A DNA stretch of 32,525 bases from Deltaproteobacteria bacterium (GTDB taxonomy: Bacteria; JAMCPX01). The translations under genes and the position numbers were made by a program. A model generated the notes under the pieces. The model saw nothing but the letters and a program-made list of their open reading frames with translations. It was not told the origin of the DNA and ran no database searches. Positions 3,377 to 17,681 of this stretch are shown here, piece after piece. Every line of letters begins with the position of its first letter. The stretch's first letter is position 1. Location: contig JAMCPX010000032.1 of assembly GCA_023382265.1 (NCBI GenBank), forward strand, positions 1 through 32,525, given 5' to 3'.

Positions 3377-5508
3377 GAATAAATAGATTGATATTGATTT
3401 TTATTACGATAATAATTCTGAGCACATGTACGAAGAGAACAAGCCCTTCTTCATGGCAGGTTATTGGAAATATGCCGGAAGGCAGGGCGGATTTTTCAGC
3501 TGTTGTTTCTTATAGCTTTCCTACTGAAACTGATATAGCTTGCGATCCTTTCCCATGTGGTGTATTACCTCTATCGCCTATTGAAAAGGTAGATATAAAT
3601 GGGACTACAGGATTTATAAGTAGTGCAGAGGTTTTACCTGCAACACTATGGAAAGATAAATACTGGATAACGAGGTACACAACATTTACTGTAAGTAATG
3701 CATTTCTTTATGCCTTCATGGCGTTAAGTTCTACTGGTACCTCAATTTCAACTTCTGTCTTCTCCTGCTATGCCCATATTAATCCTGATGGAACAATAGG
3801 TATGTGGAAGAATATAGCAAATCCTATTGTAGACAAATTCAGATATTTCTCTTCTACTATTGGTTATGGGAACTGGATTTATTCTCTGGGAGGGTTTACC
3901 GAGATTAGCTTTTCTCCATATATACAACCAATAGGTAGTGGTGTTTCAACCAGTTCTGTAAGCGATGTGATTATGACTAATGTTAACTCAGATGGCTCTA
4001 TCAGAATATGGCAGACTACAACAGCTATGCTTGCACCAAGAGGGAATTTTGGGGCAGTTGCATTTAGTGGATATGTTTATGCTATTGGTGGACAGACACC
4101 AACAGGTGTAACTAACACTGTTGAGATGGCACAGGTAATGACAGATGGAACGCTCGGTTTTTGGAAATACACATCTCCACTTAATACACCACGGGAAGGT
4201 TGTGGTATTATAGAGTATAATGGATATATCTATGTAATAGGTGGTGACACAAGTAATTGGGGTATGAATACTGTAGAAATGGCTAAGATCAATCCAGATG
4301 GTTCGCTAAGTACATGGAGCTATACGAGTCCTTTGCAGATTGCAAGGACAGATTTTAATGTGGTTGTGTTGAATGAAAGGATATATGCGATAAGTGGAGG
4401 TGTAGGAACTATTGAGTATGCTGATATACATTCAGATGGAATATTAGGGAGCTGGAAGATATTACCTTCTTTTGGGTTTGTGTTTTCTTTAATGTCTTCC
4501 ATTGCTTATCAGAGCCATATATACTTATTAGGAGGGGCAGTGCCTTATTATTTGAGTACTTGGGACTACCAACCATCCTATTTATATATAATTGGTGGTT
4601 ATGCTCCGACAGTCACAACAAGTATTCAAATGGTAACAATAGATGGTTCAAGAATAGGTGGATGGAGTGAGGTTTCTGATTTATGGGAACCGAGGGCAGG
4701 GCTTTCCGCTGTTACAAATATGGGATTTATCTATACTACAGGTGGAGAAGGTGCTAATGGAGCATTAAACAATATGGAGGTTACATATCCTACAGATGCT
4801 ACAGGTATGCTTGGAAAAGGAATAGTGGTGGATGAAACAAACGGCATGCCCACCGGGGGTGGGGCGATCAGTACAGGATGTGATATGTGTATAATAGGAG
4901 GGGCGTATAACGGTGTGTATTCGGGTAACGTTCGATGCGCCCCCCTTTTTGATCAGGTTTTTCCCGGCTATCCTTCATGTGCTGTTTTTTCGAACTTACC
5001 ACAATCACATAACGGTATTCCAATGGGAGATTTTATTACAACTTCTGTGCTTAACACAGCAAGATATAAAAGCGGTGTAGTAATTTATCCACCAATCTTA
5101 AGTGGAATGAATTTCACATCCTTGGTGTATGCACTTGGCGGATACTATACAGGTACATCTATAACGAACTCTGTTGAGTATGCACAGGTGATGACAGATG
5201 GAACGCTCGGCAATTGGCAGTACACAAGCTCAATGAACCTGCCAAGGGCGGCGTTCGCAGCCGTTGCAATCAGCGGATGGGTGTATGCAGTAGGGGGATA
5301 CACGGACAAAGGCATAACAAACACAGTTGAGAAAGCACCAATAAATCCGGACGGCTCACTTGGTAAATGGGTATTCATAGATCCCATGACCATACCCCGT
5401 GCAGGGCTTGCAGTAGTAGAGGACAACGGCTGGATATACGCACTTGGAGGCATATCAACACCCAATGGCATGCCGCTTGATACCATAGAAGCAGCAAGGA
5501 TGTATTAA
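3373..5508 (+). CDS. Kelch-repeat beta-propeller lipoprotein
   Basis: 711-residue predicted lipoprotein. The start at 3373 is chosen because it overlaps the upstream stop (ATGA) and gives a proper signal: basic residues 2-5, hydrophobic core, and a Leu-Ser-Thr-Cys lipobox with Cys19. An ATG at 3310 would put 21 non-signal residues in front. The mature part has at least seven kelch-like blades of about 50 residues, each with an Asn-x-Asp-Gly-(Ser/Thr)-(Leu/Ile)-Gly-x-Trp motif, a Pro-Arg turn and a Tyr-x-x-Gly-Gly strand end. No catalytic motif is visible. Such propellers usually bind proteins or glycans; any partner here is unknown, though coupling to the metalloprotease suggests they work together at the surface. 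The 3' part, after about 5200, is visibly richer in GC than the 5' part. Confidence 0.8.
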   Translation: MRINRLILIFITIIILSTCTKRTSPSSWQVIGNMPEGRADFSAVVSYSFPTETDIACDPFPCGVLPLSPIEKVDINGTTGFISSAEVLPATLWKDKYWITRYTTFTVSNAFLYAFMALSSTGTSISTSVFSCYAHINPDGTIGMWKNIANPIVDKFRYFSSTIGYGNWIYSLGGFTEISFSPYIQPIGSGVSTSSVSDVIMTNVNSDGSIRIWQTTTAMLAPRGNFGAVAFSGYVYAIGGQTPTGVTNTVEMAQVMTDGTLGFWKYTSPLNTPREGCGIIEYNGYIYVIGGDTSNWGMNTVEMAKINPDGSLSTWSYTSPLQIARTDFNVVVLNERIYAISGGVGTIEYADIHSDGILGSWKILPSFGFVFSLMSSIAYQSHIYLLGGAVPYYLSTWDYQPSYLYIIGGYAPTVTTSIQMVTIDGSRIGGWSEVSDLWEPRAGLSAVTNMGFIYTTGGEGANGALNNMEVTYPTDATGMLGKGIVVDETNGMPTGGGAISTGCDMCIIGGAYNGVYSGNVRCAPLFDQVFPGYPSCAVFSNLPQSHNGIPMGDFITTSVLNTARYKSGVVIYPPILSGMNFTSLVYALGGYYTGTSITNSVEYAQVMTDGTLGNWQYTSSMNLPRAAFAAVAISGWVYAVGGYTDKGITNTVEKAPINPDGSLGKWVFIDPMTIPRAGLAVVEDNGWIYALGGISTPNGMPLDTIEAARMY
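4129..5211 (+). repeat. Near-identical 27-bp repeat inside the kelch gene
   Basis: The copies at about 4130-4156 and 5183-5209 share 26 of 27 bases, reading ACAGGT, then A or G, then ATGACAGATGG and AACGCTCGG. They encode the same Met-Thr-Asp-Gly-Thr-Leu-Gly blade motif. Flanking blades differ much more, so this looks like recent duplication or gene conversion between blades rather than codon constraint alone. Confidence 0.65.
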
Positions 5509-5598
5509 CCTCCCAAACGCATGTTTTGGATTGAACGCTTTTTGGATTATAATGTCCTTTTAGAACTGGAATAACAGCCAGAATAAATATACATAATC

Positions 5599-5626
5599 TT
5601 GACAAATACCAATATTTCCGGATACC
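5599..5626 (+). promoter_or_regulatory. Candidate sigma70-type promoter of glyQ
   Basis: A perfect TTGACA at 5599-5604 is followed after 16 bp by a weak -10 (GATACC, 5621-5626). Transcription would start within a few bases of the ATG at 5637, and no Shine-Dalgarno precedes that ATG, so the mRNA may be nearly leaderless. A competing TATAAT at 5548-5553, with a poor -35 near 5526, would give a leader of about 75 nt. Confidence 0.35.
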
Positions 5627-5636
5627 GTGCCTTGTC

Positions 5637-6521
5637 ATGTATGTTCAGGAGCTAATTTTTAGTTTAAATAAATTCTGGTCTAATAACGGATGTGTTATAG
5701 ATCAACCCTATGATATAGAGGTTGGTGCGGGCACATTCCATCCGTCTACCTTTTTACGGGTACTCGGTGCTAAACCATGGTCAGCTGCTTATGTCCAGCC
5801 GTCAAGAAGGCCTGCTGACGGCAGGTATGGCGAAAACCCAAACAGGCTGCAGAGATATTTTCAGTATCAGGTTGTTATGAGCCCTGCACCTTCCGGTATT
5901 CAACAAACATACCTTAAAAGTCTCAAAACGCTCGGCATAGATCCTGAAAAACATGATATCAGGTTTGTAGAGGATGATTGGGAATCTCCAACACTTGGGG
6001 CATGGGGTCTTGGCTGGGAGGTATGGCTTGACGGTATGGAGATTACACAATTTACATACTTTCAGCAGACAGGCGGCATTGACCTTATTAACACGCCTGT
6101 AGAGATCACTTATGGCACGGAGCGAATTGCAATGTATCTTCAAAATGTTGAGAATGTGTATGAGCTTAAATGGAATAAAACAGTAACATACGGAGAACTT
6201 TATAAAGAGAATGAGAGACAGGGATCCATTTATAATTTCGAGCGTGCTGATACAAAAAGGTTATCCATGCTGTTTGATGAATATGAGCATGAGGCAAAAA
6301 GGCTTTTGAATGATGGTCTATATCTTCCAGCTTATGATTATGCATTAAAATGCTCACACGTGTTTAATCTGCTGGACGCAAGACGTGCGATATCGGTTAT
6401 GGAAAGGGCAAGGTATATCGCAAGGGTAAGGGCAATGGCAAAAACGGTTGCCCAGGGGTATATCTTTCAGACAAACAACGATTTAAACGATACAAATGGT
6501 TCAATAGGTTTAAAACAGTAA
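5637..6521 (+). CDS. glyQ: Glycyl-tRNA synthetase alpha subunit
   Basis: Catalytic class II subunit of the bacterial alpha2beta2 glycyl-tRNA synthetase, which charges tRNA-Gly with glycine and ATP in the cytoplasm. At 294 residues it has normal family length. Highly conserved blocks are visible: the Glu-Val-Gly-Ala-Gly-Thr block near residue 25, the [11 protein letters not shown] block, the [19 protein letters not shown] block, and the FTYFQQ-GG block. The start fits the usual N terminus and no ribosome binding site is evident. Its stop overlaps the glyS start by one base (TAATG), so the subunits are translationally coupled. Confidence 0.97.
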
Positions 6522-8719
6522 TGTCAGAGCTATTTATAGAAATTGGTGTTGAAGAGATACCGGTCAATGAGATAAAACCCGCAATAGAGCATATTTCACG
6601 GAGTTTGTGGATGCTTTTTACAAATGATCATCTTTTTGAAAGCGAATCTAACACGATTGAAGAGGTCTGCCAAACCTACACCACCCCGAGAAGGCTTGCT
6701 GTGTGTTTTAATGGACTTGCAGATAAAGGCAAGCCTGTCTCTATAACCTGTACAGGACCAAGAAAAGAATCGGCATATGATCAGAAGGGTAAACCAACTA
6801 CCGCTGCGATTGGTTTTGCACGTTCAAAGGGTATGGATGTATCCGATTTGAAGGTTGTTAAGCTTGAAAAAGGCGAGTTTGTACAACTTGAGCTTAAAAA
6901 ACCGGGGATAAATACAGATGTTCTTATTAGAGAGCAGCTCAAGGATATTATTTTAAATATCCCGTTTAAAAAATCCATGAGATGGGTGAAAGACGGCATA
7001 AGTTTTATCAGACCAATAAGATGGTTTGTAGTGCTCTATAATCAAAGAGTTGTACCGGTATCCATTGGGGAAATAAAGTCATCATCATTTACATCAGGCA
7101 TATTGCTTGAGAATAAAAAAATAAAGGTATTAGACTGTAAATCATATCTTAATGTTTTAAAAAGCCATAAGATTATTCCATCTTTCGACCATAGGAAATC
7201 CATTATATCAGATCAAGCTAAACTTATAGCAGAAGATGTTCATGGGAGTGCTGTACTTGATAATGAATTATTAGATACCCTGTCGAACCTTGTGGAATCT
7301 CCTGTTGCAATTCTTGGTACTTTTGACTCAAGGTTTATGAATCTGCCTAAAGAAGTAATCATAAGTGTGATGAAAGATCATCAGAAATACATACCGATCG
7401 AGAAAAACAACTCTGAACTACTGCCCTACTTTATAGGGATAAGCAACAATCCTTATGGAGACAACGATGTGATCAGGAAAGGGTACGAACGGGTGCTTCA
7501 TGCAAGGCTTGAGGATGCGGAGTTCTATTATAATGAGGATATCAAACAACCGCTTGCATCGTATGTTGAACTGCTGAAAGGTATGATTTTTAATCCGGAG
7601 CTTGGCAGTCTTTATGACAAAACGCAACGTATAGTGGCTGTATCTTCATACCTATGTGATGAAATTGGATTTAAAAACAAATCCCGGGTCACATCCTCTG
7701 GGCGTGAACCCGTCCCCTTTGCTAAAGGAGGAATTTTGTTTCAACCTCTTGATGAAACCTCAATAATAATGACTCTTAAAGCGGCACAGCTTTGCAAAGC
7801 CGATCTTGCAACAAGACTTGTATCTGAATTCCCCGAATTGCAGGGCACGATTGGCAGACAATACCTTGTGCTTGAGAATAAGGGCTATGAACGCATAGCT
7901 CAGGCAATCTATGAACATCATTTGCCGAAGGGTTTTAGTCCTGAGCTCCCGGAATCCTTGATAGGTGCAGTTGTCTCTATTGCTGATAAGGTTGATACGT
8001 TGATAGGATTTTTCAGTATAGGTGAACAGCCGACAGGCACACAGGATCCTTATGGATTAAGAAGGGCAGTGATTGGCATTATAAATACCATAGTCAAATT
8101 TCAGCTTGAGCTGGACCTGAAACTTATTATAGATTTTGGTATTGATATGTACAGGCATATTAATGATAAGGAAAAGCTATCCAGACAGATCATGAACTAT
8201 ATACTGATAAGGCTCAAAGGTATTATCAAAGAAGGAATAAATATGGATGATATGCTCATTGAAGCAGTGATTGAAACAAAGCCTGTAAACATAATAGAGG
8301 TTGAACAGAGAATCAAAGCATTAAGTGATACGGTGCTGAAAAAGGAGTTTGAGCCTGTTTACTTAGCTTATAGAAGGGCAATAAATATCACGAAAGGATA
8401 TAAAACATCAAATAATGATAAAGTAGATACCTCATTATTTGTAGAGTCTTATGAAAAGGATTTATATAACAAATACTTAGAGGTATATAAATTAGCCCAA
8501 CCAAAACTTGCAAATAGGGATTATAAAGGCTATATAAAGACACTTGAAACGCTCATACCGCATGTAAACTTGTTTTTTGAAAAGGTGCTTGTAATGACGG
8601 AAAATCTGGATGTAAGAAATAACAGATTATTGATGCTTACAAATATAGGCATGCTTATTAATCAATTGCTTGATATAACAAAACTAAACACAGGGGGTAT
8701 TTATGGCAGTAAAGAATAA
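6521..8719 (+). CDS. glyS: Glycyl-tRNA synthetase beta subunit with an internal insertion
   Basis: Partner of GlyQ, needed for tRNA-Gly recognition. The N terminus Leu-Phe-Ile-Glu-Ile-Gly-Val-Glu-Glu-Ile-Pro is diagnostic. The central region keeps the conserved Lys-Ala-Asp-Leu-x-Thr and Asp-Pro-Tyr-Gly-Leu-Arg-Arg blocks, and the C terminus ends in a DALR-type anticodon-binding domain. At 732 residues it is roughly 40 longer than typical family members. The excess includes about 25-30 residues at 388-415 (sequence around Gly-Arg-Glu-Pro-Val-Pro-Phe-Ala-Lys-Gly-Gly), encoded by tandem palindromes that look like an inserted repeat element. The frame is intact, so the gene is probably functional. 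The last 17 bp overlap ppdK. Confidence 0.96.
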   Translation: MSELFIEIGVEEIPVNEIKPAIEHISRSLWMLFTNDHLFESESNTIEEVCQTYTTPRRLAVCFNGLADKGKPVSITCTGPRKESAYDQKGKPTTAAIGFARSKGMDVSDLKVVKLEKGEFVQLELKKPGINTDVLIREQLKDIILNIPFKKSMRWVKDGISFIRPIRWFVVLYNQRVVPVSIGEIKSSSFTSGILLENKKIKVLDCKSYLNVLKSHKIIPSFDHRKSIISDQAKLIAEDVHGSAVLDNELLDTLSNLVESPVAILGTFDSRFMNLPKEVIISVMKDHQKYIPIEKNNSELLPYFIGISNNPYGDNDVIRKGYERVLHARLEDAEFYYNEDIKQPLASYVELLKGMIFNPELGSLYDKTQRIVAVSSYLCDEIGFKNKSRVTSSGREPVPFAKGGILFQPLDETSIIMTLKAAQLCKADLATRLVSEFPELQGTIGRQYLVLENKGYERIAQAIYEHHLPKGFSPELPESLIGAVVSIADKVDTLIGFFSIGEQPTGTQDPYGLRRAVIGIINTIVKFQLELDLKLIIDFGIDMYRHINDKEKLSRQIMNYILIRLKGIIKEGINMDDMLIEAVIETKPVNIIEVEQRIKALSDTVLKKEFEPVYLAYRRAINITKGYKTSNNDKVDTSLFVESYEKDLYNKYLEVYKLAQPKLANRDYKGYIKTLETLIPHVNLFFEKVLVMTENLDVRNNRLLMLTNIGMLINQLLDITKLNTGGIYGSKE
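7685..7735 (+). repeat. Tandem palindromes inserted in frame in glyS
   Basis: Two adjacent hairpin-forming units. The first pairs GGGTCAC (7686-7692) with GTGAACCC (7704-7711) with one bulged base. The second pairs CCCCTTT (7714-7720) with AAAGGAGG (7724-7731) across a 3-nt loop with one mismatch. The encoded residues fall where other GlyS proteins have no equivalent sequence. The layout resembles small palindromic or MITE-like repeats that insert without breaking frame. No second full copy was found in this window. Confidence 0.5.
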
Positions 8720-13163: not shown

Positions 13164-14096
13164 TTATTTCTTAAACATGTCTCCAGATTTTAATCCTCTG
13201 CCTATTGCGAAATCAAATGCAGACATTGGTTTACCGGAATTTGGTTTGACATACTTTATAAGTAAGATGCCTTTCCCCGTTGCAGTATGAATTCCATTCT
13301 TATTGCTTTCTATTATAGTACCCGGGACTTGTTTGGGAGCCTCGTCCAAAGGTTCTGTACTTAATATCTGTAGAGGATTACCCTTATAGTATGTCCATGC
13401 GGTAGGCCATGAAATGAGTGCTCTAACCGTATTATGGTTTTCTACGGCAGACTTATTGAAATCAAGCTCGCCCTCTTCTTTTGATATCTTTGGTGCTAAC
13501 ACTGCTAAGTCATTATTTTGCGGGATAGGGGTGACAGCCTGCTGTTCAAGCAAAGAAAGCGATTTTAATAATAGATCAGCGCCGATTCGTGAGAGTCTAT
13601 CCTCAAGTGAAATTGCATTATCAAGTATATCTATCATCTCTGTTTGTTGCATGATTATGGGACCCGTATCCATACCTTCATCAAGCTTCATTACAGTAAC
13701 AGCCGTTTTGGTATCACCCTTCAAAAGGCATCTCTGTATTGGTGCCGCACCTCTGTATTTGGGAAGTAAAGATGGATGTATGTTTATGCAGCCATACCGG
13801 GGTAATGTTAATATGTATGGTGGTATAAGTTTGCCATAAGCAGATACGACTATAGCATCGGGTATTCTTGATTGCAGCCATTTTTTAAAAGGCTCATCGG
13901 AAAGATTTGACGGTGTCATTGTATCTATATCGTGTTTTATTGCAGTTTCGTGTACGCGAGTCGGTTTTTTAATAAGTCCTCTTCCAGAGGGCTTCGGAGG
14001 TTTTGTTACTGCGCCAATTATGTCATGGTGTGAATTTATTAATGCTTCAAAGGCAGGTATACTAAATGAAGAACTACCCATAAATATTATTTTCAT
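13164..14096 (-). CDS. fmt: Methionyl-tRNA formyltransferase
   Basis: Formylates initiator Met-tRNA with 10-formyltetrahydrofolate. 310 residues, normal length. The N-terminal formyltransferase domain has the catalytic Asn105, His107 and Asp143, in Asn-Ile-His-Pro-Ser-Leu-Leu-Pro and Gly-Met-Asp-Thr-Gly contexts, plus the KYRGAAPI signature at 113-120. A C-terminal OB-like domain follows from about 205. It is the last gene of the minus-strand run, 11 bp after def, a common pairing. No clear Shine-Dalgarno precedes it, so coupling to def is likely. It converges on the carboxyltransferase gene across 73 bp in which no convincing terminator was found. Confidence 0.97.
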   Translation of the reverse strand: MKIIFMGSSSFSIPAFEALINSHHDIIGAVTKPPKPSGRGLIKKPTRVHETAIKHDIDTMTPSNLSDEPFKKWLQSRIPDAIVVSAYGKLIPPYILTLPRYGCINIHPSLLPKYRGAAPIQRCLLKGDTKTAVTVMKLDEGMDTGPIIMQQTEMIDILDNAISLEDRLSRIGADLLLKSLSLLEQQAVTPIPQNNDLAVLAPKISKEEGELDFNKSAVENHNTVRALISWPTAWTYYKGNPLQILSTEPLDEAPKQVPGTIIESNKNGIHTATGKGILLIKYVKPNSGKPMSAFDFAIGRGLKSGDMFKK

Positions 14097-14107
14097 ATAA
14101 CAGATTA

Positions 14108-14644
14108 TTATATTTTTCGTGAATGATGGTTAGCAGGACCGTGTTCTGACCTGTCTTTTTTTAACGATCTGATATAAGCCTCTCTTTTAAGCAATGACGT
14201 CTTATCAAGTAGTGTTATCCCCATAAGGTGATCCATCTCATGCTGTATAACTATTGCTGTTAATCCTTTTGCTTCAAAAAAGATTTCTTTCTCATTTAGA
14301 TCAAAAGCCGAAACAAGGATTTGATCGTTTCTTTTAACGTTTATTCTGAAGCCGGGCAGACTAAGACATCCTTCTTCTATTGAGGCCTCGCCGCTTGATT
14401 CCACAATTCTTGGGTTAATAAATACCATCGGATGTTTTTTTTCATCTTCCGTATGGACATCCATTAAGAATAAAAGGCTTTCTTCTCCAATTTGTGTAGC
14501 CGCTAATCCTATCCCCAAAGCGTTGTACATGGTTTCAAACATATTACCTATAAGTGTACGGATATTGTTGTCTATATTTTTTACTGGTTTTGCCTTTTTT
14601 TTAAGTATGCTTTCCGGATATGTGTGTATCTGTAGTATTGACAT
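14108..14644 (-). CDS. def: Peptide deformylase
   Basis: Removes the N-formyl group from nascent proteins using a bound metal. 178 residues with all three family motifs: GIGLAATQ at 44-51, EGCLS at 91-95 (metal ligand Cys93) and QHEMDH at 134-139 (ligands His135 and His139, catalytic Glu136). The C-terminal extension beyond the catalytic core is basic and His-rich. Its start overlaps the stop of the upstream DUF4388 gene by one base. Confidence 0.97.
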   Translation of the reverse strand: MSILQIHTYPESILKKKAKPVKNIDNNIRTLIGNMFETMYNALGIGLAATQIGEESLLFLMDVHTEDEKKHPMVFINPRIVESSGEASIEEGCLSLPGFRINVKRNDQILVSAFDLNEKEIFFEAKGLTAIVIQHEMDHLMGITLLDKTSLLKREAYIRSLKKDRSEHGPANHHSRKI

Positions 14645-16050
14645 TATTCTTCTCGTTCAAGCAGTTCTAGTTGTTTTTTTGATTCTTTATGATTTGAATT
14701 ATGCACCAGTGCCTTTAAAAAGCATTCGCGAGCTTTCTTATACTCTTTTTTATTTTTGTATATTATACCGAGATAGTAGAGATTTCTTGCCTCTTCCGGG
14801 TTCAGTTCATTAGCTTTAAGGAAAGCTTTTTCAGCATTGGCAATATTTATCTGGTGTTCAGAAAAATCCATTGTCTCGAGAATACCCATTGCAGTATAAT
14901 ATTCACCTATGGTCGAATCATTATCTATTGCTGTTTTAAATGCATTATATGCATCTCTATAATTTTTTTCATTAACAAGTATTTTACCCTTTTCAAAAAT
15001 TTGTCTGGCAAGTACCGGGTCTGACTCTACAGACAGCATACTTTTATCTTCCTCGCTCAATTCTCTTAAATATTTTTCCCTTGAGGTATCTTTATAAATG
15101 ATGGTAAATGCTTCAAGCACCTGGTTGTACAGTTCTGTTGCAAGCGGTTTTATTTCTGCATATTCTCCATCCAGGAATCTATCAGGCCTGTACTTCTGTG
15201 ATAATTGTGTAAAAGCAGAGAGTATTTGTTCCTTTGTCGCTGTTTTATCAAGTCCGAGTTTCTCAAACAGGTTTTGATTCTTAAATGTTTCGAGCTTTGA
15301 TGTTATTTCTATTTTAAGCATAGGTGTTTCAGCAGTTTCTGTCTTTTCAGAGCTTGGATAAATCAGTTCGAGTAATCTTAATACTCCTAGTATTTGTATG
15401 GTTTTTAATTCACCCATGCTTCCTTCTGTTACTATATTGTTTACAGTTTTATTTTCATCTATAAGATTGTATATCTTCTCACCTTCCGTATTTTTCAATA
15501 TATGTATACCATCTTCCGATGATGCCGTTTTTTGTATTATTGTTTTGGTAGAACCAATCAGCTCTTTTAATTTGTCAGGGCTAAATTTCCTTTTCACACC
15601 TTCCAATATGAGTGTCCACATGCTCAGGTCAAGCGTTATAACCTCGTCACTAAAAGGAGCTCCCTCTATAAAGTTGTATATCCCGTCATCCCACTCAAAG
15701 ACAGAGTAGATAATCTCGGAAACTTGTTTTAGAACAAGGTCAAAAAGCTGTTCAGGTGTTAAGAGCCCCATATTTACAAGTATGGTCCCCAGCCTGTTGC
15801 CTGTTTTCATGACTTCTTTTAAAGCAGCATCAAGTTGTGCTTCAGAAACAAGCCCAAGCCTTGATACCATTGTTCCCATCCTGTCAGAGGAAGAATTAGA
15901 CGCAGAAAATACCGGCTTACCTTTTGATATGTAAACAATCTTTACCTCCGAGCCATTGGTCAGCCTTAATATGCCCGTACTTTTCTCCGAGTACAGGCTT
16001 ATCAAAATCTTAATAAACGATATATCTTTTAAATTACCTTTTGTTATCAT
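14644..16050 (-). CDS. DUF4388 / degenerate J-domain / TPR protein
   Basis: 468-residue cytoplasmic protein with no signal or membrane segment. An N-terminal DUF4388 (PatA N-like) domain spans about 1-130 and includes a Met-Gly-Leu-Leu-Thr-Pro-Glu-Gln-Leu helix pair. A DnaJ-like domain spans about 261-331, and TPR-like helices span about 345-465. The J-domain signature reads Arg-Pro-Asp (288-290) in place of His-Pro-Asp, so stimulation of DnaK is doubtful. Proteins of this architecture occur in Deltaproteobacteria and Myxococcota, generally without an assigned role; scaffolding or signalling is a reasonable guess. It sits between the ArsA/148-residue pair and def. Confidence 0.8.
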   Translation of the reverse strand: MITKGNLKDISFIKILISLYSEKSTGILRLTNGSEVKIVYISKGKPVFSASNSSSDRMGTMVSRLGLVSEAQLDAALKEVMKTGNRLGTILVNMGLLTPEQLFDLVLKQVSEIIYSVFEWDDGIYNFIEGAPFSDEVITLDLSMWTLILEGVKRKFSPDKLKELIGSTKTIIQKTASSEDGIHILKNTEGEKIYNLIDENKTVNNIVTEGSMGELKTIQILGVLRLLELIYPSSEKTETAETPMLKIEITSKLETFKNQNLFEKLGLDKTATKEQILSAFTQLSQKYRPDRFLDGEYAEIKPLATELYNQVLEAFTIIYKDTSREKYLRELSEEDKSMLSVESDPVLARQIFEKGKILVNEKNYRDAYNAFKTAIDNDSTIGEYYTAMGILETMDFSEHQINIANAEKAFLKANELNPEEARNLYYLGIIYKNKKEYKKARECFLKALVHNSNHKESKKQLELLEREE

Positions 16051-16077
16051 ATCAAATTATAAACACAGACTTTCGTC

Positions 16078-16524
16078 CTATTCAATGATGATTTTTTTAA
16101 TCTTTTTTGATTTTTGTTTTTTTCTCTCACCCTTCAAAATGCTTCTTAAGCTCTCCAACATCTGCCATCTTGGATCCATTTGTTCAATCCCCTGTTTTTT
16201 TAATCTTTCCATCTCCTCATCGATCATACTATTGATCAAATATAATATCTCCCCAGCATCTGCCGGCATATTTCCCAGCCTTAGAGGATCAATTACCTTG
16301 CCTATTATTACATTTAATAGAAGTTGAAACAGGTTAAGAATAGATACTAATAGTGCAGTAGCTTCTCCGTTATCATAATTGCTAATAGTTTCTCTAACAA
16401 AGTCTACGAGTGATATTAGAGCAAGTATGTCCTCTCTATTTGCCGTTAAGAAATGTTGTTTAGAGGCTTCAAGTGCTTTTATGGCCTCAGGGTTTAATTT
16501 GGTTATGTTCTGTTTTTTTTTCAT
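16078..16524 (-). CDS. Hypothetical helical protein coupled to ArsA
   Basis: 148 residues, not recognised. The ATG at 16524 overlaps the ArsA stop as ATGA and is preferred; a TTG at 16545 would add seven residues. The sequence is almost entirely predicted helix. A strongly hydrophobic stretch at about 55-75, rich in Leu, Ile and Val, could be a buried or membrane-associating helix. An acidic amphipathic segment follows, and the C terminus is very basic (about residues 130-145, many Lys). No Cys cluster or enzymatic motif is visible. Tight coupling on both sides suggests it works with the ArsA ATPase or the DUF4388 protein. Confidence 0.75.
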   Translation of the reverse strand: MKKKQNITKLNPEAIKALEASKQHFLTANREDILALISLVDFVRETISNYDNGEATALLVSILNLFQLLLNVIIGKVIDPLRLGNMPADAGEILYLINSMIDEEMERLKKQGIEQMDPRWQMLESLRSILKGERKKQKSKKIKKIIIE

Positions 16525-17681
16525 ACAAAAGTTATTTTTAGCCAATCATCCTCTGTTGAGGCTTCTTTAATCTCCTTTGTCTGAAGTGCCCTCGGTAGTG
16601 CAATATTCCTCTGGAAATTCCTTATTTTAAGGATAAGCTCATCACCACTGATAAATAATTCAATCTCCTCTTTTTTAACACCGGGCAGTTTTAACATAAA
16701 AATGAAGCTGTTGCCCTTTTTATTTATTTTAATTGGAGATTCTTTGCTGAAGATCTTTGATGGGTTTTCACTCTCGAACAATGCGTCTGCAAATTGTGAC
16801 AGGGCCTGAATCCCGATCATCTCCTTATTGTATAATTTTGCTCTAAATAGAGGGGTGCCGGCAAAGGACTTCGAAATGTGTTTGATATGCTTATCCTGAA
16901 TCTCAAGCCAGTTGGCCAAGTATGAATCGTTGATTTCCTGTGGATATATCTTGTTTATGATTACGGCATCTATTGTGAATCCAAACATATTAAGATAGGT
17001 CTGAGCTCTTATTGATTCATTTATAACCATTTTTTCGGGATTTACCATAAGTCTTATGGTTGTAAAATTGTTGTCTATGAGTAGTGCTTTTATTTTTACC
17101 ATTTTTAAGTATAACTGTTCTATTGCACCATAAACTTCGTCTTTTGGGAATGGTATTCTGGCAAATTTTTCGGCGGCAGGTCTTACTATCTTTGCTATTT
17201 TTCTGCCGATGTTGAAAAACTTGTCCATATACCATTGAAATATCTCGGGAAAGCTGAGCAGCCTTATTGTGTTTGCGGTTGGTGCACAATCTATTATTGC
17301 AACATCAAAACTGCCCTGATCTTTATACTCAAGTATCTTTAAAAGGCTGAATAACTCTTCCATTCCCGGCAGGGTTGCAAGCTCTTCTGCAATTAATTCA
17401 TCGAGTCCCTGGCTTTGCAGTAATATTTTTATGTATGATTCAATCTTTCCCCAGTTATTAGATATTTCATTCTGAACGTCTATCTCCTGTGCGAATAGGT
17501 TCGTCTTTAGCTTCTTTGGCTCTTTGCCTATGGGCATACCGAAAACATCGGATAGACTATGCGCTGCATCTGTACTTAAAACAATTGTACTATTCCCGAA
17601 TTCCGCAGAACGAACCGCTGTTGCTGCCGATACGGTCGTTTTACCAACCCCACCTTTGCCTGTGTATAATATCACTCTCAT
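16521..17681 (-). CDS. ArsA/Get3-family ATPase with C-terminal HSP20-like domain
   Basis: 386-residue deviant P-loop ATPase: GKGGVGKTT at 8-16 and an Asp-Ala-Ala-His-Ser-Leu switch near 39, with an Asp-Cys-Ala-Pro-Thr segment near 130. The last 65 or so residues form a small-heat-shock-like beta domain (Leu-Pro-Gly-Val-Lys-Lys-Glu-Glu-Ile pattern), matching the known ArsA_HSP20 arrangement. One ATPase half only, so it would act as a dimer. No arsenite pump, ArsR or ArsC lies nearby, so arsenic resistance is unlikely; a chaperone or targeting role like Get3 is more plausible but unproven. It leads a tight minus-strand run ending in fmt. An upstream TTGACG at 17712-17717 may be its -35 box. Confidence 0.9.
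   Translation of the reverse strand: MRVILYTGKGGVGKTTVSAATAVRSAEFGNSTIVLSTDAAHSLSDVFGMPIGKEPKKLKTNLFAQEIDVQNEISNNWGKIESYIKILLQSQGLDELIAEELATLPGMEELFSLLKILEYKDQGSFDVAIIDCAPTANTIRLLSFPEIFQWYMDKFFNIGRKIAKIVRPAAEKFARIPFPKDEVYGAIEQLYLKMVKIKALLIDNNFTTIRLMVNPEKMVINESIRAQTYLNMFGFTIDAVIINKIYPQEINDSYLANWLEIQDKHIKHISKSFAGTPLFRAKLYNKEMIGIQALSQFADALFESENPSKIFSKESPIKINKKGNSFIFMLKLPGVKKEEIELFISGDELILKIRNFQRNIALPRALQTKEIKEASTEDDWLKITFV

Follow-up and report, generated by a model that had tools for sequence, protein, structure and literature searches.

Which protein works with a Get3-like ATPase that carries an alpha-crystallin domain is the question raised by a run of genes in the stretch of DNA analysed here, 32,525 nucleotides of contig JAMCPX010000032.1 from a Deltaproteobacteria bacterium (hereafter, the window). 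The gene of such an ATPase (A) is followed by those of a small helical protein (B), a multi-domain protein (C), the peptide deformylase def and fmt (Table 1). A preliminary description had reported these genes as a tight run, which their coordinates bear out: all lie on the minus strand, A and B overlap by 4 base pairs (bp; 16521-16524), B and C are separated by 27 bp (16051-16077), C and def overlap by 1 bp (14644), and def and fmt are 11 bp apart. Comparison across genomes revealed that B goes with the alpha-crystallin-fused ATPase in many families, and that the C-terminal tail of B is associated with the alpha-crystallin domain of the neighbouring ATPase.

An alpha-crystallin-fused ATPase and its small neighbour

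The ATPase had been described as bearing a chaperone-like domain, and Pfam agrees, with matches to ArsA_ATPase (PF02374, 310 bits) and, towards the C-terminus, to ArsA_HSP20 (PF17886, 71.5 bits). At 272.2 bits against TIGR00345 (cut-off 135), A falls within the Get3/TRC40/ArsA family and, on sequence grounds, is a single-domain member near Get3d in architecture. It stays below the NosAFP equivalog NF050088 (140.3 bits, cut-off 325), and in a PDB sequence search the cyanobacterial Get3d (NosGet3d, 3igf) scored 74 bits, below several Get3 and ArsA entries. The best matches in that search were the ATPase ARSA1 (5zme, 171 bits) and two entries named "arsenical pump-driving ATPase", 3ug6 and 3zq6, which we take to be archaeal Get3. 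Members of this family dimerise and hydrolyse ATP, as A is expected to do. In an alignment of 46 homologues, drawn from the 90 distinct fused loci described below, residues G8, G10, G11, G13 and K14 of the deviant Walker A are identical in all 46 and K9 in 44; aspartates 38, 45 and 131 are also conserved. Asn243, a probable adenine contact, is likewise kept in 46/46, which suggests a fuller nucleotide site in A than in AtGet3d or NosGet3d. The sole cysteine is C132, with no CXXC motif, and the alpha-crystallin domain of A has neither a C-terminal extension nor an I-x-I tail of its own.

Protein B of the window reached no Pfam cut-off (two matches, with E-values of 0.17-0.19) and had no NCBIfam match. 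Its AlphaFold2 (AF2) model shows five helices with a predicted local distance difference test score (pLDDT) of 71.6, the tail (residues 135-148) lying below 50. The members of the B family share one amphipathic helix, approximately H-F/L-x-x-A-x-x-E-x-L-L-A-x-R-S-x-x-D, and a C-terminal tail. They range from 63 to 188 amino acids (aa), the minimal forms of 63-77 aa retaining the tail and little else, and some carry an N-terminal CPxC. In the window this tail is a terminal K-I-x-I-E (KKIKKIIIE), which contains the I-x-I/V motif; the stand-alone Hsp20 of the same genome also ends in an I-x-I-type sequence, KQVSVDIE. That Hsp20 (L170, G000:C54, 4002-6382, minus strand), with its VSVDIE tail, lies directly behind a dnaK-like gene, as read by eye. 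In three genomes of f201, an actinobacteria-like family that is presumably Streptomyces, B corresponds over its full length to the Pfam family DUF5304 (PF17230). The representative at L104 scores 236 bits and adjoins a fused ATPase; it was the only one of 11 scanned B proteins to pass a Pfam cut-off, with weak DUF5304 matches at L106, L164 and L168. The f201 protein resembles the window's B in gene position, core helix and tail (RIDLD), although the latter has no DUF5304 match at E ≤ 1. B appears to represent a family that spans phyla, with DUF5304 its sole named tip.

The breadth of the pairing was assessed in 386 genomes searched with PF17886. Of these, 272 matched, mostly plain Hsp20 judging by their short open frames, and only fusions were followed; sampling was then widened by 36 extra stretches and a search of four phyla. 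The resulting 99 fused loci include nine duplicates (L120-L126, L139 and L162), whose removal leaves 90 distinct loci; they were also dropped from the tail-blind count below. In distant genomes, too, small helical open reading frames (ORFs) follow the fused ATPase, most of which a single-sequence search with B had missed, and the A-B arrangement occurs in many lineages, often with the 4-bp overlap. A tail rule was defined as a small same-strand ORF directly behind the ATPase, ending in [IVL]x[IVL] plus one to three polar residues. Such an ORF follows 62 of the 99 fused ATPases, compared with 18 of the 669 other ORFs that reach 250 aa; when a basic residue must precede the motif, the figures become 60/99 and 7/669, the control ORFs being six-frame ORFs of which some are not genes. 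Among distinct loci the rule holds in 54/90, or 53 once L099 is excluded, since the profile does not identify its ORF as B. A curated count, which omits L099 and adds B genes that lie upstream, behind a longer gap or with a longer or degenerate tail, places B beside the fused ATPase in 61 of the 90 loci and in 23 of the 35 sampled GTDB families. For instance, in G214 the order is swapped, with B upstream of A and still adjacent.

A profile for B (A2) matched in 27 of the 386 genomes, beside a fused ATPase in 22. The remaining five comprise G007, at a contig edge, G139, where B stands beside BagA/BagB-like ATPases, and three matches elsewhere. Two tail-less relatives were read by eye in other surroundings: a B-like protein of G038 adjoining a gltB-like gene, and a 77-aa protein with the B core helix at L216 (G194, 4767-6721, minus strand) beside a UbiB/AarF-like kinase.

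Get3d is tied to photosynthesis in its published account (PMC10248533). Among 50 genomes searched for the type II reaction centre (Photo_RC, PF00124), with G031 entered as lacking B and G534 as bearing it, there was no match in the 35 B-bearing genomes, the window's included, and a match in 5 of the 15 without B. The alpha-crystallin Get3 architecture is thus widespread in genomes without Photo_RC, where it often has a neighbour gene. Two genomes with type II reaction centres (G067 and G208; L087 and L088) each carry three fused ATPase genes close together, the last two copies being low-scoring.

The tail of B and the alpha-crystallin domain

Alpha-crystallin domains bind, in their beta4/beta8 groove, the I-x-I tail of small heat-shock proteins, and Hsp27 has been reported to bind I-x-I/V motifs in Tau and PCBP1 (PMC9005852, PMC3638399). 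That B ends in a peptide motif bound by such heat-shock domains makes it a strong candidate partner for this family of ATPases. The association between tail and domain was examined with a tail-blind profile, built after removing the last 16 residues of B, to which the seed sequences match by construction. The tail was present in 39 of the 45 B proteins beside an alpha-crystallin ATPase, whereas it occurred in none of the 21 from the phylum of G139 (39/6 versus 0/21; Fisher's exact test, p = 3e-12). The six tail-less proteins beside a fused ATPase comprise one cut by a contig end (L111), two ending in IIITSTT and three ending in RIKPT or KFKPT. Two loci with interrupted assemblies also show the tail: L046, whose domain-less score simply reflects an ATPase split between two contigs and two ORFs, and L037, whose contig starts inside B.

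In the phylum of G139, B homologues were found in 21 of 46 genomes, G139 included, and a PhaR-like gene directly follows B at all 21 loci; PhaR-like here denotes similarity to the protein at L215, which is itself below the cut-off for TIGR01848. Thirteen of the 14 loci L215 and L242-L254 contain B, the PhaR-like gene and two Get3-like ATPases in a row, and the fourteenth, where the contig ends, has one ATPase. None of the 27 complete ATPase ORFs in these 14 loci matched, at E ≤ 1, an alpha-crystallin profile that recovers 99 long ORFs from the fused loci. Six were checked and have an ArsA_ATPase match without PF17886. In G139 the ATPases are nearest to BagA and BagB, at 112 and 304 bits, below the cut-offs of 400 and 521. 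In the other 7 of the 21 loci, no Get3-like ATPase was found within the 6-9.5 kb fetched. This B-PhaR-ATPase-ATPase order constitutes a second conserved Get3-like cluster; near it, in two genomes of the phylum, fmt-like ORFs at L230 (1-519) and L232 (2855-3373), with 108 and 89 bits, echo the def/fmt pair of the window. Furthermore, a PhaR-like gene lies close to a fused ATPase in four further loci, namely L046, L106, L131 and L039 (on the opposite strand in L039).

It is important to note that several observations weigh against a partnership of A and B mediated by the tail. The tail-less proteins without a fused ATPase all come from one phylum, so the contrast is an association, not 21 independent events, and shared descent may explain it. 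The three degenerate tails (RIKPT, KFKPT) belong to the phylum of G035, and at L166 a B-like ORF with a weak DUF5304 match ends in a tail that fits the rule, with no ATPase in the stretch examined. The hydrophobic groove positions 349, 351, 353, 381, 383 and 385 are equally conserved in ATPases with and without B; the expectation that conservation of the groove would be confined to ATPases with B failed its test, and the groove alone does not predict B. Twelve families with a fused ATPase show no adjacent B, f44 among them as a contig-edge case. Moreover, the tail was spotted on the first loci before the rule was set, and the loci fetched later follow it in 45 of 76 cases (a hand count that includes L099). 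At the structural level, the AF2 model of A (pLDDT 51.5, from 6 close input sequences) is too poor for mapping the groove, and a Foldseek search of B against the PDB gave no significant match (best E-value 0.59). On a tree of 66 of the 90 ATPases, the distribution of B requires about 11 gains or losses, compared with a shuffled mean of 18.6. Loss, replacement or an undetected B are all compatible with this number, and a single origin of the pairing does not follow from it.

C, def and the gene run in the window's family

Table 1. Coordinates of the genes and protein features of the run, in window positions
Feature	Positions	Strand	Details
A, Get3/ArsA-fold ATPase with alpha-crystallin domain	16521-17681	-	386 aa; PF02374 + PF17886, TIGR00345
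Deviant Walker A of A, GKGGVGKT, residues 8-15	17637-17660	-	read from sequence
Alpha-crystallin (HSP20-like) domain of A, residues 325-385	16527-16709	-	PF17886
B, putative helical partner protein	16078-16524	-	148 aa counted from ATG at 16524
C-terminal tail of B, KKIKKIIIE, I-x-I motif	16081-16107	-	sequence; low-confidence in AF2 model
C, DUF4388 / MshE-like motif / J-like domain / tetratricopeptide repeat (TPR) protein	14644-16050	-	468 aa; Pfam, NCBIfam
Predicted c-di-GMP-binding MshE-like motif of C, residues 57-106	15733-15882	-	NF053729 47.6 bits, cut-off 38
J-like domain of C, residues 261-327	15070-15270	-	PF00226 29.9 bits, cut-off 27.8
def, peptide deformylase	14108-14644	-	TIGR00079 over cut-off
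fmt	13164-14096	-	window gene after def

Protein C combines DUF4388 (81 bits) and TPRs with a J-like domain whose DnaJ match lies just over its cut-off. The domains of the preliminary description were thus recovered. The HPD motif of a J-domain is lost in the window. Among seven aligned sequences this motif reads RPD in the window, NPD in L033 and L035, and HPD in L034, L037, L038 and L048; by genome, it is degenerate in the window, G003 and G005. The loss makes recruitment of Hsp70 through this domain doubtful in the window's species. The MshE-like motif, a domain that had been overlooked, exceeds its cut-off and suggests that C may be under second-messenger control by cyclic dimeric guanosine monophosphate (c-di-GMP), whose binding is predicted.

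The window's family was the only family of its phylum searched. Within it, A-B-C-def is complete in G000, G001, G002, G003 and G005, which represent four genera, so the refuting case of the preliminary description, an order unique to the window's genome, does not hold. It is cut by contig ends in G004, G007 and G008, and G006 shows C-def only, at a contig edge. None of the window's other tested genes (ispG, fmt, folE2, queD, rsmG, crp, uppS, glyS and two more) turned up in the stretches fetched from relatives, and among the family stretches examined the window alone has fmt behind def. The same order in other genera with other flanks indicates that the run is more than chance. In L034 and L038, judging by eye from translations, it is flanked by porphyrin-type genes.

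Outside this family the run splits: A-B is broad, C was not found beside A-B in the loci read, and C-def occurs separately. At L219 (G051:C208, 4657-7697), whose contig lacks A-B, a Mrp/ApbC-like gene, identified by eye, is followed by a C homologue of 32% identity and then by def; the MshE-like motif of this homologue reaches 36.9 bits, just under the cut-off of 38. No def match was present within the stretch examined at any of 15 further C-like loci (L200-L214). The idea of C as part of a conserved unit with A-B consequently fails beyond the window's family, and C and def tie the run only weakly to nascent chains. Of the Get3-like pathway that had been put forward, what stands is the Get3-family ATPase with its alpha-crystallin domain and the company of B across many families; a single conserved pathway of A, B, C and def is not supported.

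Proposed mechanism, alternatives and known systems

The best model, and one that we consider somewhat probable, is that B is the dedicated partner of A, with its tail docked on the alpha-crystallin domain. A and B would together form a two-component Get3-like machine. In it, A would be a SIMIBI-type ATPase, dimeric like its family and with its deviant Walker A intact, while B, a predicted small helical bundle from an overlapping gene, would supply an I-x-I peptide in trans from its flexible C-terminus. This tail would dock in the beta4/beta8 groove at the outer edge of the alpha-crystallin domain and bring the helices of B to the dimer, close to either the client chamber or the nucleotide-dependent dimer. 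By analogy with Get4/5 acting on Get3, the helices may then regulate the ATPase cycle, or the binding and release of hydrophobic clients. Physical docking, the class of client, a role in targeting and an effect on ATPase activity are thus what the model would predict. In the window's family, the A-B pair is further linked to the DUF4388-J-TPR protein and to peptide deformylase.

Alternative explanations differ in what they make of the neighbouring genes. B could be a phasin-like or granule-surface protein, the ATPase serving to load a storage granule or a membrane with amphipathic proteins and the PhaR-like neighbour regulating the same inclusion. We regard this as unlikely: the constant PhaR-like neighbour in the phylum of G139, its recurrence near four fused ATPases and the similarity of the L106 PhaR-like protein to the phasin family (2.5e-6, just under the cut-off) speak for it, but no PhaR-like match lies near A-B in the window's family or in the remaining fused loci read, and no scanned B reaches a phasin model. 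The earlier proposal, in which A, B, C and def share a single Get3-like route for nascent or membrane proteins, appears less probable again. Although the order recurs in four genera with flanks unlike those of the window, and C-def was seen once outside the family, the separation of C from A-B in the loci read elsewhere, the lack of a def match in the stretches examined at all 15 C-like loci and the degenerate J motif in three genomes oppose it. In addition, def and fmt are housekeeping genes often found in mixed operons, which also counts against such a route.

Other doubts concern the tail and the ATPase themselves. The tail could be no more than a terminus that is basic and prone to beta structure, such as a degron or a nucleic-acid contact, with the link to the domain due to descent. 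The origin of all 21 tail-less proteins without a fused ATPase in one phylum, the indifference of the groove to B and the L166 tail without a visible ATPase would fit this explanation; it is nevertheless improbable, given that a loose rule recovers the tail in 21 families (22 if L099 is counted) despite wide divergence in the middle of B, and that the tail survives in the minimal B proteins of 63-77 aa. Finally, an arsenite pump ATPase is hardly credible. The family name alone favours it, whereas A scores 112 bits against TIGR04291 (cut-off 650), has one ATPase domain instead of two, and comes from a genome with a separate 616-aa two-domain ArsA (L169, G000:C53, 3824-8389) beside arsR-, arsC- and ACR3-like genes (by eye), so that the arsenical pump was rejected for A.

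The partnership of A and B bears on questions left by earlier work. According to the excerpts available, Get3d, which has the same alpha-crystallin architecture, captures a tail-anchored protein in assays; its alpha-crystallin domain sits at the dimer interface, in the position of the Get4 site of yeast Get3; the function of the domain is unsettled; and a targeting role "would necessitate new partners", of which these excerpts name none (PMC10248533). A conserved neighbour gene that ends in a known ligand motif of the domain makes both the role of the domain and the identity of the partner directly testable. Likewise, a survey of ArsA gene contexts gave, in its available parts, no functional clue for the single-domain clusters 8-13, of about 290-424 aa (PMC2963123); by their size the fused ATPases probably belong there, and B would offer a partner for these uninterpreted homologues. 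In the open-licence literature, among the titles and opening lines of abstracts listed, no description of B or of the A-B pairing was found, nor any paper on ArsA with an HSP20-like domain, on DUF5304 or on bacterial Get3 with tail-anchored proteins. A wider proposal, plausible although we hold it at slightly less than an even chance, is that non-photosynthetic bacteria possess a GET-like system whose Get3 uses its alpha-crystallin domain as a docking port for a separately encoded I-x-I-tailed adaptor, the cross-phylum family that Pfam knows only by its DUF5304 tip. This adaptor would be the missing partner of Get3d-type ATPases and, in tail-less form, would serve Get3-like pairs of the BagA/BagB kind beside PhaR.

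Among known systems, Get3d (NosGet3d/AtGet3d, NosAFP) is the closest in architecture, sharing with A the Get3/ArsA fold, the C-terminal alpha-crystallin domain and the absence of CXXC. A differs in falling under the NosAFP cut-off, in having a partner gene attached and in the lack of Photo_RC in B-bearing hosts. Get4/Get5 of the yeast GET pathway can be likened to B by proposed role alone, that of a helical regulator near the Get4 site; no sequence or fold match was found for B. BagA/BagB of Mycobacterium tuberculosis, a Get3-like pair, are nearest to the ATPases beside B-PhaR in G139, which differ in scoring under the Bag cut-offs; these ATPases have no alpha-crystallin domain and their B is tail-less. 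Small heat-shock proteins share with B the C-terminal K-I-x-I-E tail, comparable to the VSVDIE of the genome's own Hsp20; in them, domain and tail stand in cis, whereas in A-B they are carried by two proteins encoded by overlapping genes.

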